NCBI RefSeq assembly: GCF_004765815.2
Contig: NZ_ML974127.1
Location: forward strand, 1,404,927-1,468,926
DNA from: Halorussus salinus
GTDB lineage: Archaea > Halobacteriota > Halobacteria > Halobacteriales > Haladaptataceae
Direction: 5' to 3'
Length of the DNA stretch: 64,000 nt
The notes under the pieces are model-generated. The model was given only the letters and a program-made list of their open reading frames with translations, ran no database searches and was not told the DNA's origin. Position 1 is the stretch's first letter. Each line of letters opens with the position of its first letter. This document shows, in pieces, positions 2,490 through 23,235 of the stretch. A program made the translations under genes and the position numbers.

Positions 2490-2632
2490 CTGCCCTGCAC
2501 TGCCTCGCACAGCGACCGCGGGCCTCAACCCTCCCCAACCGCCTGCGTCGTCTGCGAACGGAGTTCGCGGACTCCTCGGCCCTCGCGCGGTAGGGCGCGA
2601 CCCGCAAGCGGTCGCGCCTGCACGCGCCGGAC
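2490..2632 (-). repeat. Dispersed hairpin repeat, copy D
   Basis: Reading the minus strand, a hairpin with 9-bp arms (GGCGCGACC 2594-2602, GGTCGCGCC 2610-2618) is followed by GCGCGAGGG and later GCGGTTGGGGAGG. The same order occurs at 16581, 28405 and 51634. It occupies the right part of the 431-bp gap between purL and the lipoprotein gene. The rest of the gap (2262-2489) shows no convincing gene. Confidence 0.65.
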
Positions 2633-2692
2633 GGAAAATCGGTGTCGCTCTCGAAATCAAAATCCGACGAGAGTGACAGCGACGGCGACCCG

Positions 2693-4813
2693 TCAGTCCA
2701 GTTCGCGCGCCAACACGTCGCGGAGGTCGGCGATTTCGGCGGCGTCGTAGGTCAGCGACTCGTCGGCGACCGTCAGGTCGAGGTCGCCCGAGGAGTCCGC
2801 CGCGCCGAGTTCGGCGACCGGCGCGACGCCGTCGAACTCCTCGCGGACGGCCTCGGGGTCGGTCGTGGCGACGACGGCGCGACCGGGCGTCTCGGCGAAC
2901 AGGGCTTCGAGCGAGGCGAGGTCGGCCGAGAGACCGGCCTCGTCGGTGACCATCTCGGCGAGCGCGACCGCGAGGCCGCCGTGGCTCACGTCGTGGACCG
3001 CCGCGGTCTCGTCGCGGTCGGCGACCTCGGCCACCGTCTCCACGACCTCGCGGGGGTTCTCCGGAAGCAGGGGGAAGCGGTCGCTCCCGCCGAACTGCGC
3101 GAGGAGTTGCGAACCGCCGAGTCGGTCGCCGCCCGAGTCGCCGACGACCAGCAGGGTCGCCCCGCTCGCGTCGCCCGAGAGCGCGGCGGGCGGTGCGTCG
3201 TAGCCCTCCTTCGTCCCGGTCATCGCCAGCGTGGGCGTCGGCGGGATGGGACCCGAGGGCGAATCGTTGTACAGCGAGACGTTCCCGCCGACGACGGGCG
3301 CGTCGAGCGCGGCGCACATGTCGGCCAGTCCGTCAACGATACCTCGGAAGCCGCCGTACACGTCCGGTTTCTCGGGGTTGCCGCCGTTCAGGCAGTCCAC
3401 TGCGGCGAGGGGCGTCGCGCCCTTCGCGGCGAGGTTCGTCGCGTTCTCCAAGGCGACTGCGCGCGCTCCCTCGTAGGGCGCGGCGGTCGTCCAGTTGGGG
3501 TCCGCGCCCGACGAGACGGCCAGTCCTTTCTCGGCTTCGCGGAGTGCCAACACCGCGGCGTCGTCGCCCGGTCCCGTCGCGGTCCGGACCTGCACCTCGT
3601 GGTCGTACTGGCGGTAGACCCACCGCTTGCTCGCGGTGTTGGGGTGGCCGACGACCTCCTCGAACGCTTCCCCGAGGTCGAAGTCGGGCAGGTCGCGCTC
3701 GGGTTGGGTCGGCTCCGTCGAATCGAGGTCGTTCATCGGCGCGCCGTCGCCGAGGAACTCCGCATCGACATCGACCACGACCTCGCCCTCGAAGGTGCAG
3801 ACGTAGTTGCCTTCGGTCACGTCGCCGATGACCGAACAGCCCAAGTCGTACCGTTGGGCGACCTCGCGGACCGCATCGACGTTCTCGGGCCGGACCTCGT
3901 AGCACATCCGCTCTTGGGATTCGGCGAGCAGGATTTCGAGCGCGTTCATGTTCGGTTCGCGCTGGTGGACATCCTCCAAGCGAATCTCCGCGCCGAGACC
4001 GCCCTTGGCGACCATCTCGCTGGACGCACCGCCGAGTCCGGCCGCGCCGAGGTCGCGGGCCGCCTCGACCAGTTCGCGGTCCAGCAGGGCCTCGCTGGCC
4101 TCGACCAGCAGTTTCTCCGTGTAGGGGTCGCCGACCTGCACCGCGGGGCGGTCCTCGGTCTCGGCGTCCTCCGAGAGGTCCTCGCTGGCGAAACTCGCGC
4201 CGCCCAGTCCGTCGCGGCCGGTCGCGTTCCCGACCAGCATCAGTTTGTTGCCGGGTTCCTTCGCGTCGGCGGTGACGAGGCGCTCGTCGTCCAGCAGGCC
4301 CACGCAGGCCACGTTCACGAGCGGGTTACCCTCGTAGTCGTCGTGGAACGCCGTACTCCCCGCGACCGTGGGGACGCCGATGGAGTTCCCGTAGTCGCTG
4401 ATGCCTTCCACGACGCCCTCCAGCAGATAGCGGGAGTGTTCGCGGTCGAACTCCCCGAAGTACAGCGAGTCGGCCAGCGCGATGGGGTAGGCCCCCATCG
4501 AGAGCGTGTCGCGGACGATGCCGCCGACGCCAGTGGCCGCGCCGTCGTACGGGTCCACGAACGAGGGGTGGTTGTGGCTCTCGATACCCATCGTGATGTG
4601 CGTTCCATCGGCGACTTCCACGACCGCGGCGTCGTCGCCCGGTCCGACGACGACCTCCTCGGCCTCGGAGTCGAAGGCCGACAGGAGCGGTCGAGACGAC
4701 CGATACGCGCAGTGTTCGCTCCAGAGGTTCTCGAACAGCGCCGCCTCCGCGGGCGTCGGCTCGCGGTCGAGTTCGGCGACGACGAGTTCCCGGTCTTGCT
4801 CGGCGAGACTCAT
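2693..4813 (-). CDS. purL: Phosphoribosylformylglycinamidine synthase, PurL subunit
   Basis: 706 residues, the usual length of the small archaeal/Gram-positive PurL that works with PurQ and PurS. It catalyses the ATP-dependent conversion of FGAR to FGAM in purine synthesis. Visible landmarks are the N-terminal [13 protein letters not shown] stretch, the ESHNHPS motif near residue 80, and Gly/Asp-rich nucleotide-binding stretches repeated in the two halves (GPGDDAAVV near 57 and again in the second half). PurQ and PurS are not in this window. The ATG at 4813 is supported by a TATA-like box at 4839-4844. Confidence 0.97.
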
Positions 4814-4818
4814 TCACC

Positions 4819-4844
4819 TGTCTGTACAGACACGGCGAATTAAT
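4819..4844 (-). promoter_or_regulatory. purL promoter with perfect 14-bp palindrome
   Basis: TGTCTGTACAGACA at 4819-4832 is a perfect palindrome beginning 6 nt upstream of the purL start codon. A TATA-like ATTAAT lies at 4839-4844, 26-31 nt from the ATG, suggesting a leaderless transcript whose start would lie in or just beside the palindrome. A repressor operator is inferred from the placement. Confidence 0.5.
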
Positions 4845-5267
4845 GCCTTTCCATGTGCAGGTGCGTGCATACATCTAGGCATAGTGCCGTCGTTTACCTC
4901 GACAACCGTCGCCAACTCACCGTGGACGCGACCGTAGCGCTGACCGGACAGTCGCGTGCCACTCCGGTACCTCGGACACGTTCCCCCGATTTCGACCGTT
5001 TTCGATTCCCTATCTACGACAACCGAACGATGGCTCTCACTCTTAGCGTCTTAGACGCGACGCATAAACCATATTACGATATATAAAACAGCCCTTGGAC
5101 TGCCGACTCGTCTCCTCTCCCGATTGTCCCGGAGAAGCACTCTCACTCGAAACGCGAGGCTCCCGACTCGTCACGACGTTGCGTCCGCCGCAACGTGAAG
5201 TCCGATTCCGAGGAGCGACCGACTCCGTACCGAGGCGCTTTTGCCGCCCGCCTGCGAACCCCCGCCC
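4845..5267. other. Intergenic region between purL and the PHP gene
   Basis: About 420 bp without a convincing gene. It holds an AT-rich stretch with TATATAAAA near 5082-5090, a good archaeal box A for rightward transcription. The next start codon is about 180 nt further on, so the downstream mRNA may have a long leader or there may be a short transcript of its own. A possible 77-codon reading frame at 4853-5086 lacks support. Confidence 0.4.
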
Positions 5268-5951
5268 GTGCTATCGGTCGAGCTTCACACCCACTCGTCG
5301 CTCTCGTACGACGGCCGGGACCCGGTCGACCTCCTGTTGGAGCAGGCCGCCGCGGTCGGTCTGGACGCGCTGGCAGTCACGGACCACGACGAACTCGCGG
5401 CCAGCCTCGAAGCGGTCGAGAAAGCCGAGGAGTACGGTCTCGTCGGCATTCCGGGCATGGAGGTCAGTTCGGCGGCGGGCCACGTCCTCGCGCTCGGCAT
5501 CTCCGAACGCGTCCCCGCGGGCCTGTCGTTCTCCGAGACGCTCGACCGAATTCGCGAGCAGGGCGGCGTCGCCGTCGTGCCCCACCCGTTCCAGAAGTCC
5601 CGGAGCGGTGTGATGGCCAACATCACGGAGGCCGAACTCGCCGAGGCCGACGCCGTCGAGGTGTACAACTCCCGACTGCTGACCGGCCGAGGCAACCGGA
5701 AGGCCCGGCGGTTCGCCGAGCGCCACGACCTGCCACAGACCGCCGGGAGCGACGCTCACATCAGCGAGATGGTCGGGCAAGCGGTCACGCGAATCGACGC
5801 CGACGAGCGGAGCGCCGCGGCCATCTTGGAGGCCATCGCCGACGGCCGAACGACCGTCGAAGGCAAGCGCACCCCGTGGCACGTCAGCTTCCGGCAGGCC
5901 GCGGGCGGCGCGAAACGCCGAGTGAAGAACCGACTCGGGGAACTCCTCTGA
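5268..5951 (+). CDS. PHP-domain phosphoesterase
   Basis: 227 residues from the GTG at 5268, chosen because the conserved domain begins at once (VELHTHSSLSYDG). PHP motifs are visible: HTHSSLS (residues 6-12), VTDHDE, GMEVSS, VVPHPF, and a C-terminal AGSDAH. These are the usual metal ligands of the PHP superfamily, which includes phosphatases and nucleases acting in the cytoplasm. The substrate is unknown. It overlaps the next gene at TGATG, implying translational coupling with the asparagine-synthase-like protein. A longer start at 5241 (TTG) is possible but unlikely. Confidence 0.88.
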   Translation: MLSVELHTHSSLSYDGRDPVDLLLEQAAAVGLDALAVTDHDELAASLEAVEKAEEYGLVGIPGMEVSSAAGHVLALGISERVPAGLSFSETLDRIREQGGVAVVPHPFQKSRSGVMANITEAELAEADAVEVYNSRLLTGRGNRKARRFAERHDLPQTAGSDAHISEMVGQAVTRIDADERSAAAILEAIADGRTTVEGKRTPWHVSFRQAAGGAKRRVKNRLGELL

Positions 5952-7138
5952 TGGCCGACCCGACCGGCTCGGGGGCGGATTCGGCGGACTCGGCCGACTC
6001 GGAGGCCGACGCCGAGATGCGCGGCGCGTCGGCCGAGCGCGTGGCGCAGGCTGTCACCGACCGTGAGGCGCTGTTCGACTCGCAGGGGTTCGCCGGTCGT
6101 CTGCCGGACGGCCTCCTCGTCCGGGACGTGTTGGGCCGACAGCCGATTTTCGTGGAGCGCAGTGACGACGCGGAAGCGAACTGGTCGTTCGCGCCCGGCG
6201 ACCTCGACGACCCCGAGCCGATTCCCGCGGGGCACGTCTTCGACCCTGAACGACGAGCCACGGAGCGAGCGTTCTCGCTTCCCGACCCCGAGTACGCCGC
6301 GGACGAGCGCGAAGCGGTCCGGACGCTCGGGAGTGCGCTCCGGGAGAGTCTGGCGTCGGTCGGAACCGCATCGACCGCACCCGACGACCTCGCGGTCGCG
6401 TTCTCGGGCGGCGTCGATTCGGCTGTCGTGGCCAGCGCCGTCGACGCGCCGCTGTACGTCGTCGGCTTTCCGGAGAGTCACGACGTGGAGGCGGCCCGGC
6501 GCGCGGCGCGACTGATGAGCCGCGAGGAGGACCTGCGAGTCGTCGAGTTGTCGCCAGCGGACGTGGAGCGGGCGGTCCCCGAGGTGGCCCGCGCCACCGG
6601 GCGGACCAACGCGATGGACGTACAAATCGCGCTCCCGCTCTCTCTGGCGGCCGAGGAGGCCGCCCGCGACGGGTTCGACCGGCTCGCGGTCGGACAGGGG
6701 GCCGACGAGCTGTTCGGCGGGTACGCGAAGGTCGCCCGCGCGCCAGAGGACCCTCGCGTCGAGGCCGAGACGGTCCGCGGGGCGGCCCGCGAGGTCATCG
6801 GGACGCTCCCCGACCAGTTGGAGCGGGACGTGCTGGCGCTCCGCGCGGCGGGCGTCGAACCGGTCGCGCCGCTACTGGACGACCGAGTAGTCCGGGCCGC
6901 GCTCGCGCTACCGGGCGAGTCGCTGGTCGATTCGCGCGGCGAGCGCAAGAAGGCGTTCCGACTGGCCGCCCGCGAGTTCGTCCCCGACGGCGTGGCGTTC
7001 CGCGAGAAGAAGGCGGTCCAGTACGGGAGTCTGGTCGCCCGCGAGTTGGACCGACTCGCCCGGCAGGCCGGGTTCAAGCGCCGGATGGACGACCACGTCT
7101 CGGCGTACGTCGAATCGCGCCTCGCGGAGGACAGTTAG
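5951..7138 (+). CDS. Asparagine-synthase-like PP-loop protein without glutaminase domain
   Basis: 395 residues. The PP-loop FSGGVDSAVV near residues 150-160 binds ATP and is typical of the asparagine synthase C-terminal domain. GQGADELFGGYAK and REKKAVQYGS also match that family. The first ~130 residues are an acidic linker (ADSADSADSEAD) and an uncharacterised region instead of the N-terminal glutamine amidotransferase domain, and no N-terminal cysteine nucleophile is present. It could use free ammonia or adenylate another carboxylate. Start codon overlaps the PHP stop, so the two form an operon. Confidence 0.85.
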   Translation: MADPTGSGADSADSADSEADAEMRGASAERVAQAVTDREALFDSQGFAGRLPDGLLVRDVLGRQPIFVERSDDAEANWSFAPGDLDDPEPIPAGHVFDPERRATERAFSLPDPEYAADEREAVRTLGSALRESLASVGTASTAPDDLAVAFSGGVDSAVVASAVDAPLYVVGFPESHDVEAARRAARLMSREEDLRVVELSPADVERAVPEVARATGRTNAMDVQIALPLSLAAEEAARDGFDRLAVGQGADELFGGYAKVARAPEDPRVEAETVRGAAREVIGTLPDQLERDVLALRAAGVEPVAPLLDDRVVRAALALPGESLVDSRGERKKAFRLAAREFVPDGVAFREKKAVQYGSLVARELDRLARQAGFKRRMDDHVSAYVESRLAEDS

Positions 7139-18677: not shown

Positions 18678-19743
18678 GGTGTCCCCACGTGTCCGCGGTG
18701 CCGTTGCCCTCGCCCTGCGGGACGACTGCCCGGCCGTCCGCGACTGGGGCGATGTCCGGGCCGAGGTCCGACTCCAGTAGCTTCCGCGTGGCGAGTCCGC
18801 AGGCCGCAACGTCCGGTATCGCGGCCGCGACGTGGACCGCGGCGGTCCGGGCGACCGCGCCGTCGATGGTGGTCGTCACGACCGGTTCGATTCCCTCCTC
18901 GCGGGCGCGAGCCGCCAGTGCGCTGGCCTCTCGCGGGCCGCCGAGCGCCATCGGCTTCAGGATTACCGCGTCGGGGTTCGCGTCGAGCGCGTCGGAAAAC
19001 TCGACCTCGGCGAGCGTCTCGTCCAGCGCGACCGGTCCCGACAGCGCGGCGAGGCCCGCGATGTCGGTCGCGGGCAGGGGTTGCTCGACGTACGCGAGGA
19101 GGTCGCCAACTGCGTCGAGGAACTGCTGGGCCTGCTGGCGGGTCCACGCGGCGTTCGCATCGGCCCGGAGTTCGACCTCGGGGAGCGCGTCGGCCACGGC
19201 CTCGATTCGCGCCACGTCGGCGGACAACTGGCGCGCGCCGACCTTGATTTTGAGACAGTCGAAACCCGCGTTCGCGGCTTGTCGGGCCTCCGCGACCGTC
19301 TCGTCGGCGGATGCGTCGCCGACCGTCGCGTTGACCGGGACGCTCTTGGCCGGGTTCTCCGAGCCGAGGTAGCGGTAGAGGGGCACGCGCTGGCGCGAGG
19401 CCCGCAGGTCCGCGAGCGCGAGGTCGAGCGCGTGGCGCGCGGCCGGGGTCGAGTCGAGATTTTCGAGGAGGTCGTCGGGCTCCTCGCCGCCGTCGATGGC
19501 GTCGCTCGCGGTTTCACCGCTCGCGTTCGAGGCGGGAAGCACCTCGCTAACCTCCGCGAGGACCGACTCACACTCGTCGTAGTGTTCGGTCCAGCCCGGA
19601 AGCGGCGTGGCCTCGCCGACCCCGACCGCGCCGTCGTCGGCTTCCAGTCTGAGGAGGAGACCGTCCCGGCGCTCGACGGTGCCCCGAGCGGTTTCGAGGG
19701 GGTCGGCGAGCGGGAGCGAGAAGGGGCGGATGTCGGCCCTCAT
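18670..19743 (-). CDS. menC: o-Succinylbenzoate synthase
   Basis: 357 residues, enolase superfamily. Dehydrates SHCHC to OSB. Visible metal and acid/base residues: KIKVGA (Lys pair), LRADANAAW (Asp), VALDETLAEV (Asp/Glu) and VILKPMALGG (Lys). Start overlaps the end of menA by 4 nt. Confidence 0.93.
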   Translation of the reverse strand: MRADIRPFSLPLADPLETARGTVERRDGLLLRLEADDGAVGVGEATPLPGWTEHYDECESVLAEVSEVLPASNASGETASDAIDGGEEPDDLLENLDSTPAARHALDLALADLRASRQRVPLYRYLGSENPAKSVPVNATVGDASADETVAEARQAANAGFDCLKIKVGARQLSADVARIEAVADALPEVELRADANAAWTRQQAQQFLDAVGDLLAYVEQPLPATDIAGLAALSGPVALDETLAEVEFSDALDANPDAVILKPMALGGPREASALAARAREEGIEPVVTTTIDGAVARTAAVHVAAAIPDVAACGLATRKLLESDLGPDIAPVADGRAVVPQGEGNGTADTWGHHD

Positions 19744-20681
19744 AGAGCGAGACCCACCGCGAACAGGAGCGAGTGGGCGGCGAGGAGTTTCCCGGTCCGT
19801 TCTAGCGCGGGATTCAGCACCTCACCCGACGAGTCGGTGAGCATCGTCCGCGCGATGATGGCGGCGTAGGGAACCGTCACCAGCGGGAGGAGGACCGCCG
19901 GGGAGTAGCCCCGCGCGAGCCAGAACCAGACGGGTACGACGTACGACAGCGCGAGCAGGCCGACGAACTCGGCCCGACTCGCGGTGTAGCCGACGAGGAC
20001 CGCGAGGGTCTTCTTGCCCGCCTCGCGGTCGGTTTCGAGGTCCCGGACGTTGTTCACGACGAGGATGTTCGTGGAGATAGCCGCGACCGGGAGGCTGGCG
20101 ACGAACGCCGCGAGGGTGACGGTTCCCTCGGGGATACCCATCGGGAAGGCCCCGGCGAGTTTGCTCGCGGCTTGCACGTAGTAGGTACCCATCACGGCGA
20201 CGACGCCGAAGAAGACGAAGACGAACAGGTCGCCGAGACCGTGCGAGCCGAGGGGGTAGGGACCCCCGGCGTAGGCGATGCCGGAGACGACGCTGGCGAG
20301 GCCGATGACGAGAATCGGCAGGCCGCCGACGTAGACGAGGTAGACGCCGACGAGGACGGCCAGCGCGAACGTGGCGTACATCGCGCGCTTGACCGACTCG
20401 GGGGCGATGAGTCCGGACTGAGTGACCCGCGTGAACCCCTCGCGCTCGTCGGTGTCCACGCCCTTCACGGCGTCGTAGTAGTCGTTGGCGAAGTTGGTGC
20501 CGATTTGGATGAGTGCCGCGCCGACGAACGCCGCCAGCGCCGGGAGCGGGGCGAAGACGCTCTCGTGGACCGCCAGCCCGACGCCGACGAAGATGGGGGC
20601 CGCGGCCGCCGGGAGCGTGTGGGGCCGAGCGGCCATCAGCCACGCCTCGCGCCGGGAGTGTTCGGTAGCCATGTCGCTCAT
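19740..20681 (-). CDS. menA: 1,4-Dihydroxy-2-naphthoate polyprenyltransferase
   Basis: 313 residues, UbiA-type membrane prenyltransferase with about nine hydrophobic segments. The two Asp-rich motifs needed for the Mg-diphosphate are present: NFANDYYDAVKGVDTDER and NNVRDLETDREAGKKT. It attaches the polyprenyl chain to DHNA, giving demethylmenaquinone. First gene of the menA-menC-menE operon. Confidence 0.95.
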   Translation of the reverse strand: MSDMATEHSRREAWLMAARPHTLPAAAAPIFVGVGLAVHESVFAPLPALAAFVGAALIQIGTNFANDYYDAVKGVDTDEREGFTRVTQSGLIAPESVKRAMYATFALAVLVGVYLVYVGGLPILVIGLASVVSGIAYAGGPYPLGSHGLGDLFVFVFFGVVAVMGTYYVQAASKLAGAFPMGIPEGTVTLAAFVASLPVAAISTNILVVNNVRDLETDREAGKKTLAVLVGYTASRAEFVGLLALSYVVPVWFWLARGYSPAVLLPLVTVPYAAIIARTMLTDSSGEVLNPALERTGKLLAAHSLLFAVGLAL

Positions 20682-20842: not shown

Positions 20843-21862
20843 TCAGTCGTCGCCCGCCGCCCGAAACTCGCGGGCCGCCTCGCGCAGTCGCTCGGAGATG
20901 CCGGGTACCTCCTCGGGCGAGACCTCGCCCGACGACTCGATGTCGGCGAGGGACTTCGGGAACTCCCGGAGCGAGTAGTGAACGTCGATGCCCGCGTTCG
21001 CGCCCTCGCCCATCGCCACCGGAATCTGGTTGTGACCCGGCGTGAGGTCGCCGACAGCGTAGACGCCTTCGACGCTGGTCTCGCCGGCGTCGCCGACCGC
21101 GACGGTGCCGTCGTCGTTGCGCTCACAGCCGAGTTGGTCCACGAGGTCGGCGTTGTAGTTCGACCCGTACATCGGGAAGCCGCCGCGGTACTCGCGGAAC
21201 GCGCCGTCCTCGAACTCGAAGCCCTCCAGCCAGCCGTCGTCGCGCTTCTCCATTCGGGCGATTTCTTCGGTCACGATTTCGACGGGGTGGGCGCGCAACT
21301 GGCGGTCGGTCTCGTCGCTCCACTCGGGGTCGTCGCCGCGCAACAGCAGGTCCACCTCGTCGGTGAAGTTGAGCATAATCATCGCGACGTGAGCGGCCGA
21401 CTCGCCGGTTCCCATCACGAAGACGGGTTCGTCCACGAACAGGTAGGCGTCGCAGTGGAGACACCAGTGAAGCCCCCGGCCGGTCGGCGGGAGCGGCGGG
21501 TCGGGGCGCTCGTCGGTGAACCCCGTCGCCAACACCACCTTCTCCGCGGTAAATTCGGCATCGCCGGTCGAAAGCCGGAACCGACCGTCGTCGGTCTCCT
21601 CGACCGACTCCACGAAGTCCCGGACGTAGTCGGCCCCGTAGTCCCGAACCTGCTCGCGGGCGGTTTCGAGGAGTTCGTTGCCCGAGACCTCCTCGGTGAT
21701 GCCGATGACGTTGTGGGTCTCGGTCATCATCGCGGCGCGGCCGCCGCCGCGGTTGACGACCACGGTGTCGTGGCTCAGCCGCGTCGTGTAGAGCGCGGTC
21801 GTGAGACCGGCCGGTCCGCCCCCGACGACCGCGACTTCGTACTCGCGAAGGTCCTCTGTCAT
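20843..21862 (-). CDS. FAD/NAD(P)-dependent oxidoreductase, thioredoxin-reductase-like
   Basis: 339 residues. N-terminal FAD-binding VAVVGGGPAGLTTAL, the NAD(P)-binding segment FVMGTGESAAHVAM, and EGVYAVGDLTPGHNQIPVAMGEG near the C-terminus mark the thioredoxin reductase superfamily. The redox pair is CLHC in GLHWCLHCDAY, near residues 152-155, differing from the usual CATC. Substrate could be a thioredoxin or glutaredoxin-like protein, or another disulfide. It lies between menA and a cysteine-rich exported peptide in the same orientation. Confidence 0.88.
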   Translation of the reverse strand: MTEDLREYEVAVVGGGPAGLTTALYTTRLSHDTVVVNRGGGRAAMMTETHNVIGITEEVSGNELLETAREQVRDYGADYVRDFVESVEETDDGRFRLSTGDAEFTAEKVVLATGFTDERPDPPLPPTGRGLHWCLHCDAYLFVDEPVFVMGTGESAAHVAMIMLNFTDEVDLLLRGDDPEWSDETDRQLRAHPVEIVTEEIARMEKRDDGWLEGFEFEDGAFREYRGGFPMYGSNYNADLVDQLGCERNDDGTVAVGDAGETSVEGVYAVGDLTPGHNQIPVAMGEGANAGIDVHYSLREFPKSLADIESSGEVSPEEVPGISERLREAAREFRAAGDD

Positions 21863-21957: not shown

Positions 21958-22263
21958 TCAGCAGTCCACGACCCAGTTACAACAGAGACACAGCTTCGGA
22001 CAGTCGGACCGACAGTACGACATGCAACAGTCGGCGTTCGGGTCGCCGACGACATCCTCGATGTCGCCGTCGATGTCGCCGACGCGGTAATCGACGCGCT
22101 CGCCGTCTTCCCACGTCGAGATGTACGAGTCGTCGTCCAACTCCTCGACGCTCAGGTCGCCAGCTTTCTCGACTTCGGTCTCCGACGCGGTGGCCGCGGC
22201 CGACGCGCCGAACGCGACTGCGCTACTCGAAGCGATACCTCGAAGGACTTGTCTTCGTCTCAT
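21958..22263 (-). CDS. Tat-exported small cysteine-rich peptide precursor
   Basis: 101 residues from the ATG at 22263. Residues 1-28 form a Tat signal (MRRRQVLRG, then Ala/Ser-rich, ending SAAATAS). An acidic propeptide-like stretch follows (about 29-78). The last 23 residues contain eight cysteines: CCMSYCRSDC, then PKLCLCCNWVVDC. Cysteine-dense C-termini behind a Tat signal are seen in halocin-type peptides. Zinc binding is the main alternative. TTTAATA lies about 30-40 nt upstream of the start. Set between menaquinone genes, to which it has no obvious link. Confidence 0.75.
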   Translation of the reverse strand: MRRRQVLRGIASSSAVAFGASAAATASETEVEKAGDLSVEELDDDSYISTWEDGERVDYRVGDIDGDIEDVVGDPNADCCMSYCRSDCPKLCLCCNWVVDC

Positions 22264-22335
22264 CACGCAATATAGTACCGAACAGAGAACTATTAAATTT
22301 TCTAATTCTATAAAGATAAATAATGTCGTCGGAGT

Positions 22336-23235
22336 TCAGTAGTGCCAGTCGAACTGCTCGAAGTCGGGGTCTCGACCCTCCACGAACGCGTCGCGCCCTT
22401 CTTGGGCCTCGTCAGTCATGTACGCCAGTCGGGTCGCCTCCCCGGCGAACACCTGCTGGCCGACCATCCCGTCGTCGGTCGCGTTGAAGGCGTACTTCAA
22501 CATTCGCATCGCGGTCGGACTCTTCTCGTTCATGGTCTCCGCCCAGTCGAGTGCGACCTCCTCCAGTTCGTCGTGGGCCACGACTTCGTTGACCATCCCC
22601 ATGTCGGCGGCCTCCTCGGCGTCGTAGTTCTTCCCGAGGAAGAAGATTTCCCGCGCCTTCTTCTGGCCGACCTGCTTGGCGAGGTAGGCCGACCCGAACC
22701 CGCCGTCGAACGAGGCCACGTCGGGGTCGGTCTGCTTGAACAGCGCGTGTTCCTCGCTGGCGATGGTCATGTCGCAGACGACGTGGAGGCTGTGGCCGCC
22801 GCCGACGGCCCATCCCGGCACGACGCAGACGACCGGCTTCGGGATGTGGCGAATCAGTCGCTGGACTTCGAGGATGTGGAGGCGGCCGCCCTTCGACGCT
22901 CGCTCGCTGTCGGCGTCGCCCTCCTCGCCGCGGTACTCGTAGCCCTCCTTCCCGCGAACCGTCTGGTCGCCGCCCGAGCAGAACGCCCACCCGCCGTCCT
23001 TCGGCGAGGGACCGTTGCCGGTCAGCAGGACGCACCCCACGTCGGTCTGGCGCTTGGCGTGGTCCAGCGCGTCGTAGAGTTCGTCCACCGTCTTCGGTCG
23101 GAAGGCGTTGCGGACCTCCGGGCGGTCGAACGCGATGCGCACGGTGCCCGACTCGACCGCGCGGTGGTAGGTGATGTCGTCGAAGTCGGGACCGGCTCGC
23201 TCCCACGCGTCGGGGTCGAAAATCTCGGATACCAT
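22336..23235 (-). CDS. menB: 1,4-Dihydroxy-2-naphthoyl-CoA synthase
   Basis: 299 residues, crotonase fold. Ring closure of OSB-CoA to DHNA-CoA. Typical MenB stretches are visible: RPEVRNAFRPKTVDEL, CSGGDQTVRG, GWAVGGGHSLH and DGGFGSAYLAKQVGQKKARE. The lack of an extended N-terminus and the SGGDQ loop distinguish it from other enoyl-CoA hydratases. It is transcribed separately from menA-menC-menE. Confidence 0.95.
   Translation of the reverse strand: MVSEIFDPDAWERAGPDFDDITYHRAVESGTVRIAFDRPEVRNAFRPKTVDELYDALDHAKRQTDVGCVLLTGNGPSPKDGGWAFCSGGDQTVRGKEGYEYRGEEGDADSERASKGGRLHILEVQRLIRHIPKPVVCVVPGWAVGGGHSLHVVCDMTIASEEHALFKQTDPDVASFDGGFGSAYLAKQVGQKKAREIFFLGKNYDAEEAADMGMVNEVVAHDELEEVALDWAETMNEKSPTAMRMLKYAFNATDDGMVGQQVFAGEATRLAYMTDEAQEGRDAFVEGRDPDFEQFDWHY

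Follow-up and report, generated by a model that had tools for sequence, protein, structure and literature searches.

What is encoded by a short reading frame of Halorussus salinus that ends in a dense cluster of cysteines and lies among the menaquinone genes, and does its product have anything to do with them? The frame is contained in a 64,000-nucleotide stretch of contig NZ_ML974127.1, referred to here as the window, and was compared with related genomes of the genus, of the family and of the class.

The precursor gene and its neighbors

The reading frame at 21958-22263 (minus strand) has an ATG start and a product of 101 residues beginning MRRRQVLRGIAS (MRRRQVLRG). A Tat-type leader is followed by a middle that is acidic and free of cysteine, and the final 23 residues contain eight cysteines; the length and cysteine count given in the original prediction are borne out by the translation. 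The leader (about residues 1-26, 22186..22263, minus strand; MRRRQVLRGIASSSAVAFGASAAATA; the cleavage point is a guess) was recognized by an RR motif and a hydrophobic stretch, and a similar leader is found in the 26 aligned members of the family described below. The middle, putative pro region (about residues 27-77, 22033..22185, minus strand), delimited by sequence and alignment, has a net charge of about -17, and shows a weak hairpin at residues 47-60 in a poor AlphaFold model (2 sequences, mean pLDDT 45). The core (residues 78-101, 21961..22032, minus strand; DCCMSYCRSDCPKLCLCCNWVVDC), delimited by the even cysteine number and the cysteine conservation in the family, contains cysteines 79, 80, 84, 88, 92, 94, 95 and 101, the last residue, in the framework CC-3-C-3-C-3-C-1-CC-5-C. 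In a six-frame translation of the 64-kb window, six or more cysteines per 24 residues occur only in this tail and in one Arg-rich out-of-frame stretch.

Full-length orthologues, 76% identical, were found in two of the 17 other genomes of the genus (G004 and G014; 59 related genomes searched), and both likewise adjoin menB. The dN/dS values of the window gene against these are 0.30 and 0.32 (NG86, whole gene), 8 of 8 cysteines are kept, and none of the changed residues in the tail region (9 of 25) is a cysteine. Because of the two orthologues at the same place, the dN/dS of about 0.3 and the retention of all cysteines, 21958-22263 is a real coding gene under purifying selection; a chance open reading frame is ruled out by the orthologues and the dN/dS. 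A matching named record is Halorussus aquaticus XZYJ18. No family was found for it in Pfam or NCBIfam, where neither it nor the other members matched known antimicrobial families. Comparison with solved structures gave weak matches, mostly to leaders and none convincing, plasmid records contained no match, and an Rfam scan yielded nothing of use.

The location among menaquinone genes had been described correctly: the gene lies between menB (22336-23235) and a TrxB-like flavoprotein gene (20843-21862), followed by menA (19740-20681), all on the minus strand. The adjacency on one strand could point to menaquinone or thiol redox work together with the flavoprotein, which keeps a CxxC motif (CLHC) and matches thioredoxin reductase (TIGR01292) with 152 bits, under the cut-off of 343. 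However, when the 1.5 kb downstream of menB is compared across 18 genomes of the genus, 3 have the peptide and 10 the flavoprotein, and 7 of these 10 lack the peptide. In the other genomes, other genes or menA directly follow menB. Most relatives of the peptide are located in another island, and the window gene has its own AT-rich promoter gap. Since the flavoprotein stands there in 7 genomes without the peptide, the connection suggested earlier is unsupported, a partnership with the flavoprotein or the menaquinone genes was rejected, and a redox role is very improbable and largely refuted. The gap downstream of menB gains and loses genes. No LanM or other lanthionine synthetase was detected among the neighbors tested (menB, flavoprotein, menA, menC, menD and menF); a LanM is encoded elsewhere in the window genome, beside another peptide.

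A family of precursors with even cysteine numbers

A total of 28 members were collected from 13 haloarchaeal genomes, 26 of them from fetched loci (12 genomes) and two, L131 (G001) and L145 (G003), from a family-wide search. Eleven of the 18 genomes in the genus have them, a patchy distribution, as do 1 of the 9 of the sister genus (G019) and the sole genome of another family (G035). They mostly occur two or three together within one metabolic island. A 29th copy, in G002 (L035:8398-8712), is split between two frames, with the leader in one and the body in another; it is probably decaying, the alternative being a sequencing error. Among 391 genomes, a profile with the leader matched 120 at E≤0.001, most through the leader only and to other Tat proteins, and a leader-free profile gave strong full-length matches only in the Halorussus-like genus, missing the G019 member that the profile with the leader had found; both searches scored 12-14 candidates per genome, so that rarer members can be missed. 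A limited literature search found no description of the family, the even-cysteine rule or the CTAG box discussed below. The family is lineage-specific, fast-changing and, as far as searched, undescribed; disulfide-rich secreted precursors as such are a known kind.

The island that hosts most members encodes two glutamate dehydrogenases, a mesaconyl-CoA hydratase-like protein, a C-C lyase and a carboxyltransferase, and presumably resembles the methylaspartate cycle. The window genome has the same island without any peptide. A 124-aa membrane protein and a MaoC hydratase, constant neighbors of the arrays, were considered as partners and rejected, because both are present in this peptide-free island. 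No immunity, modification or transport gene was recognized beside the family genes.

Tat leaders were assigned by sequence only, from the pattern RR-x-[VL]-L-[KR] followed by a hydrophobic stretch. An RR leader with a hydrophobic stretch is present in 28 of 28 members, and RR at residues 3-4 is invariant in the 26 aligned ones, of which 8 match the Pfam profile TAT_signal and 5 match TIGR01409, weakly (E up to 1). The window peptide likewise has the twin-arginine leader of a predicted Tat substrate, as originally proposed, and the mature, presumably exported part would be no longer than about 75 aa.

Leader and middle can be aligned throughout the family, and the tails show 18 cysteine frameworks with 6-16 cysteines. 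The cysteine number is even in 28 of 28 members and the last residue is exactly Cys in 26 of 28; among predicted genes from these loci that contain five cysteines or more, used as controls, 9 were even (one being the frameshifted member) and 17 odd. In ten pairs of related members, differences were counted at 38 of 259 leader positions, 102 of 493 middle positions, 63 of 202 non-cysteine core positions and 0 of 106 cysteines. The members being related, the parity and divergence counts are not independent trials; the frameworks nevertheless differ by whole cysteine pairs. Divergence that rises from leader to core with fixed cysteines is the pattern of defensin or toxin precursors.

Because the cysteine number is always even and the frameworks differ by whole pairs, fully paired disulfides are favored over zinc. 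The eight cysteines of the core very probably form four internal disulfides, and we hold with good confidence that the peptide is both exported and disulfide-bonded; the relatives, with their leaders, spacings and parity, argue for the small exported disulfide-rich peptide that had been predicted. A cytoplasmic zinc-binding small protein with a misread leader would be in keeping with the many small CxxC zinc proteins of haloarchaea, and homologues with a conserved zinc spacing and a cytoplasmic location had been named in advance as evidence against export. The opposite was seen, namely 18 spacings, the RR leader and hydrophobic stretch in all 28 members and the even-cysteine rule, which makes a zinc protein the least probable of the readings considered.

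Longer precursors with a Tat leader and a cysteine-rich tail were found in 42 of 391 genomes of the class (query: five such proteins). Forty were taken, at least one from each of the 30 loci returned and further copies in G000 and G198, with duplicates and unrelated reading frames removed by hand. They have 203-273 aa, with an RR leader, a nearly cysteine-free domain and a cysteine-rich tail that is even in 39 of 40; the exception, L171, is even in total once Cys45 is counted. Six are present in the window genome (L178-L182; C1:310721, C1:559129, C1:1223203, C2:444023, C4:446241 and C4:447793), with 208-229 aa and differing cysteine-rich tails of 6 to 18 cysteines, always even. Profile comparison of the short and long kinds detected resemblance only between their leaders (97% probability, 29 columns) and not between the mature parts, and direct homology was rejected on this ground. 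The two kinds are of the same design, sharing the RR leader and the even-cysteine tail, with no common ancestry of their mature parts apparent in this comparison.

Parity also bears on a secreted metallothionein-like scavenger, whose dense cysteine clusters would bind soft metals such as copper or zinc outside the cell. Many members do contain CC, CxC and CxCC motifs, and one subfamily contains CxCxCYCCIC. Metal clusters, however, need no parity. That all 28 short precursors and, with Cys45 of L171 counted, all 40 long ones are even over many frameworks argues against this role, as do the aromatic residues common in the cores, and it is regarded as unlikely. Many of the family cores are acidic and polar.

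Proposed role and related systems

To our knowledge, sequences are available for few archaeal antimicrobial peptides. Defensin- and hepcidin-type prepropeptides, which are eukaryotic and take the Sec route, have a leader, an acidic pro-region and a short, cysteine-dense C-terminal core; the likeness of the window precursor to these is an analogy only. Tat is the route for folded proteins, and the question is raised how it would serve peptides that carry four to eight disulfides. With a leader, a parity rule and a promoter box to define it, the family offers dozens of candidates to synthesize.

In the mechanism proposed here, the prepropeptide would leave the cell by the Tat route and lose its leader. 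The 24-residue C-terminal core would be oxidized to four disulfides and released or displayed, the acidic middle serving as a pro-region that keeps it soluble or harmless before cleavage by an extracellular protease. The likeliest function would be halocin-like antagonism of competing haloarchaea, and the precursors may form a fast-diversifying, lineage-specific set with promoters of their own, inserted at convenient gaps between housekeeping genes. Taken in full, from Tat export and the disulfide-locked core to antagonism, this reading is given an even chance. Precedents are halocins H4 and C8, with precursors that are reported to be Tat-exported and activated by proteolysis (PMC11509114, PMC12893001). 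The antagonism reading is weakened because many family cores are acidic and polar, whereas PMC11509114 describes the halocins known to date as hydrophobic, because no immunity, modification or transport gene was recognized beside the family, because no known antimicrobial family was matched in Pfam or NCBIfam, and because the likeness to the longer precursors ends with the leader.

The same structural evidence, with no immunity gene recognized, would also suit an exported disulfide peptide with a non-lethal role in cell-cell signaling, protease inhibition or cell-surface cross-linking, and the several different peptides of a genome could serve as signals or inhibitors. Conflict, more than a shared signal, would account for the strong framework diversity and the patchy presence. 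Antagonism is favored, and a non-lethal role is regarded as possible but rather unlikely.

Among halocins, the precursor of halocin C8 (ProC8), as presented in PMC11509114, is Tat-exported and composed of an immunity part, HalI, and a C-terminal HalC8. The window precursor has in common with it the predicted Tat-type export, a proposed C-terminal active part and a haloarchaeal producer, and putative halC8 genes are reported in Halorussus in the same text (PMC11509114). It differs in length (101 aa against 283 for ProC8) and in core size (24 residues against 76), and has a middle of about 51 aa in place of a HalI-sized domain between leader and core (dimensions of ProC8 from PMC11509114). No HalC8-type match was among the Pfam and NCBIfam matches, and the peptide is set apart from HalC8 by size and layout. 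With microhalocins (<10 kDa) the family would share the size class and, by prediction, the secretion design, and it differs in its many acidic, polar cores; the microhalocin-like activity hinted at earlier is a hypothesis. Other cysteine-rich, hydrophobic C-terminal tails were noticed at L063:955-1332 and L066:1942-2235 and are, we assume, reminiscent of halocin C8; neither gave a credible NCBIfam family match, and L066 gave none in Pfam either.

Promoters and the CTAG box

The gap upstream of the window gene (22264..22335) is AT-rich (GC 0.31 in a window of 0.68 GC), with TTAG at -42 (22305-22302) and a TATA-like TTTAATA from -34 (22297); the 60 nt preceding the family starts are likewise AT-rich. 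Of 26 family genes, 23 have a CTAG in the 80 nt preceding the start; in 18 it falls between -48 and -40, and it mostly stands just before a TATA-like stretch. Among predicted gene starts of these loci whose upstream GC is <0.50, taken as controls, 3 of 43 have a CTAG, none at -48 to -40; all controls gave 14 of 350 (17 near family genes excluded). In 2000 dinucleotide shuffles of the 28 upstreams the count averaged 7.2 and reached 15 at most, against 23 observed. The window gene is without CTAG, its TTAG at -42 being one base away; in both orthologues a CTAG lies at -25, with a second one at -45 in one of the two, and the upstreams of L131 and L145 have none. For the long precursors, CTAG lies within 80 nt before the assumed start in 15 of 40. 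Members thus appear to carry their own promoter, with a CTAG element common to the relatives; a promoter role of this box is put forward as a hypothesis. A scan for sigma-70-type promoters was of no use, this promoter type not being that of an archaeon. Beyond the family, CTAGAAA followed by an RR start does not identify such genes: 30 of at least 60 matches were translated, and the three cysteine-rich tails among them were known members, with two further matches leading to a 12-aa and a 2-Cys reading frame.

CTAG is under-represented in haloarchaea, and an orphan CTAG methyltransferase is present in 174 of 217 genomes, its role being called open there (PMC6471742). In Haloferax lucertense, PMC11001535 reports CTAG enriched upstream of start sites, also at about -35 to -45. 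On the widest proposal, which we consider unlikely, haloarchaea would possess a large undescribed secreted arsenal of short and long Tat-exported disulfide peptides, with tens of always even cysteine frameworks, controlled in the Halorussus group through CTAG boxes at about -40 to -48. The tetramer being the one that the conserved orphan methyltransferase modifies, the arsenal might on this proposal form a regulon switched by CTAG methylation or by a CTAG-binding regulator. If the box matters, it would be a direct reporter for what CTAG methylation does in haloarchaea.

A doubled box, CTAG-N4-CTAG, stands just before the TATA-like stretch in several members (for example L034:9886, L034:13978, L036:11110 and L037:9140). 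Genome-wide in the genus, CTAG-N4-CTAG-NNAA has 10 sites, 4 of which precede family genes, against 7 for the reversed control, and is not clearly enriched. CTAG-N4-CTAG also precedes a predicted secreted protein and an unidentified gene, the two sites being L192 (G003:C8:11327) and L188 (G015:C4:128727). The only exact CTAG-N4-CTAG-NNAA of the window genome (L228, G000:C1:483000-493000; box at 6167-6182) precedes a 50-aa reading frame (5977-6129, minus strand; MARDISQ...TNCYLSTDPICGSSGEDDEMEF), which lies tail-to-tail with a LanM gene (2604-5900, plus strand; TIGR03897, 587 bits, cut-off 304) and probably encodes a lanthipeptide precursor.
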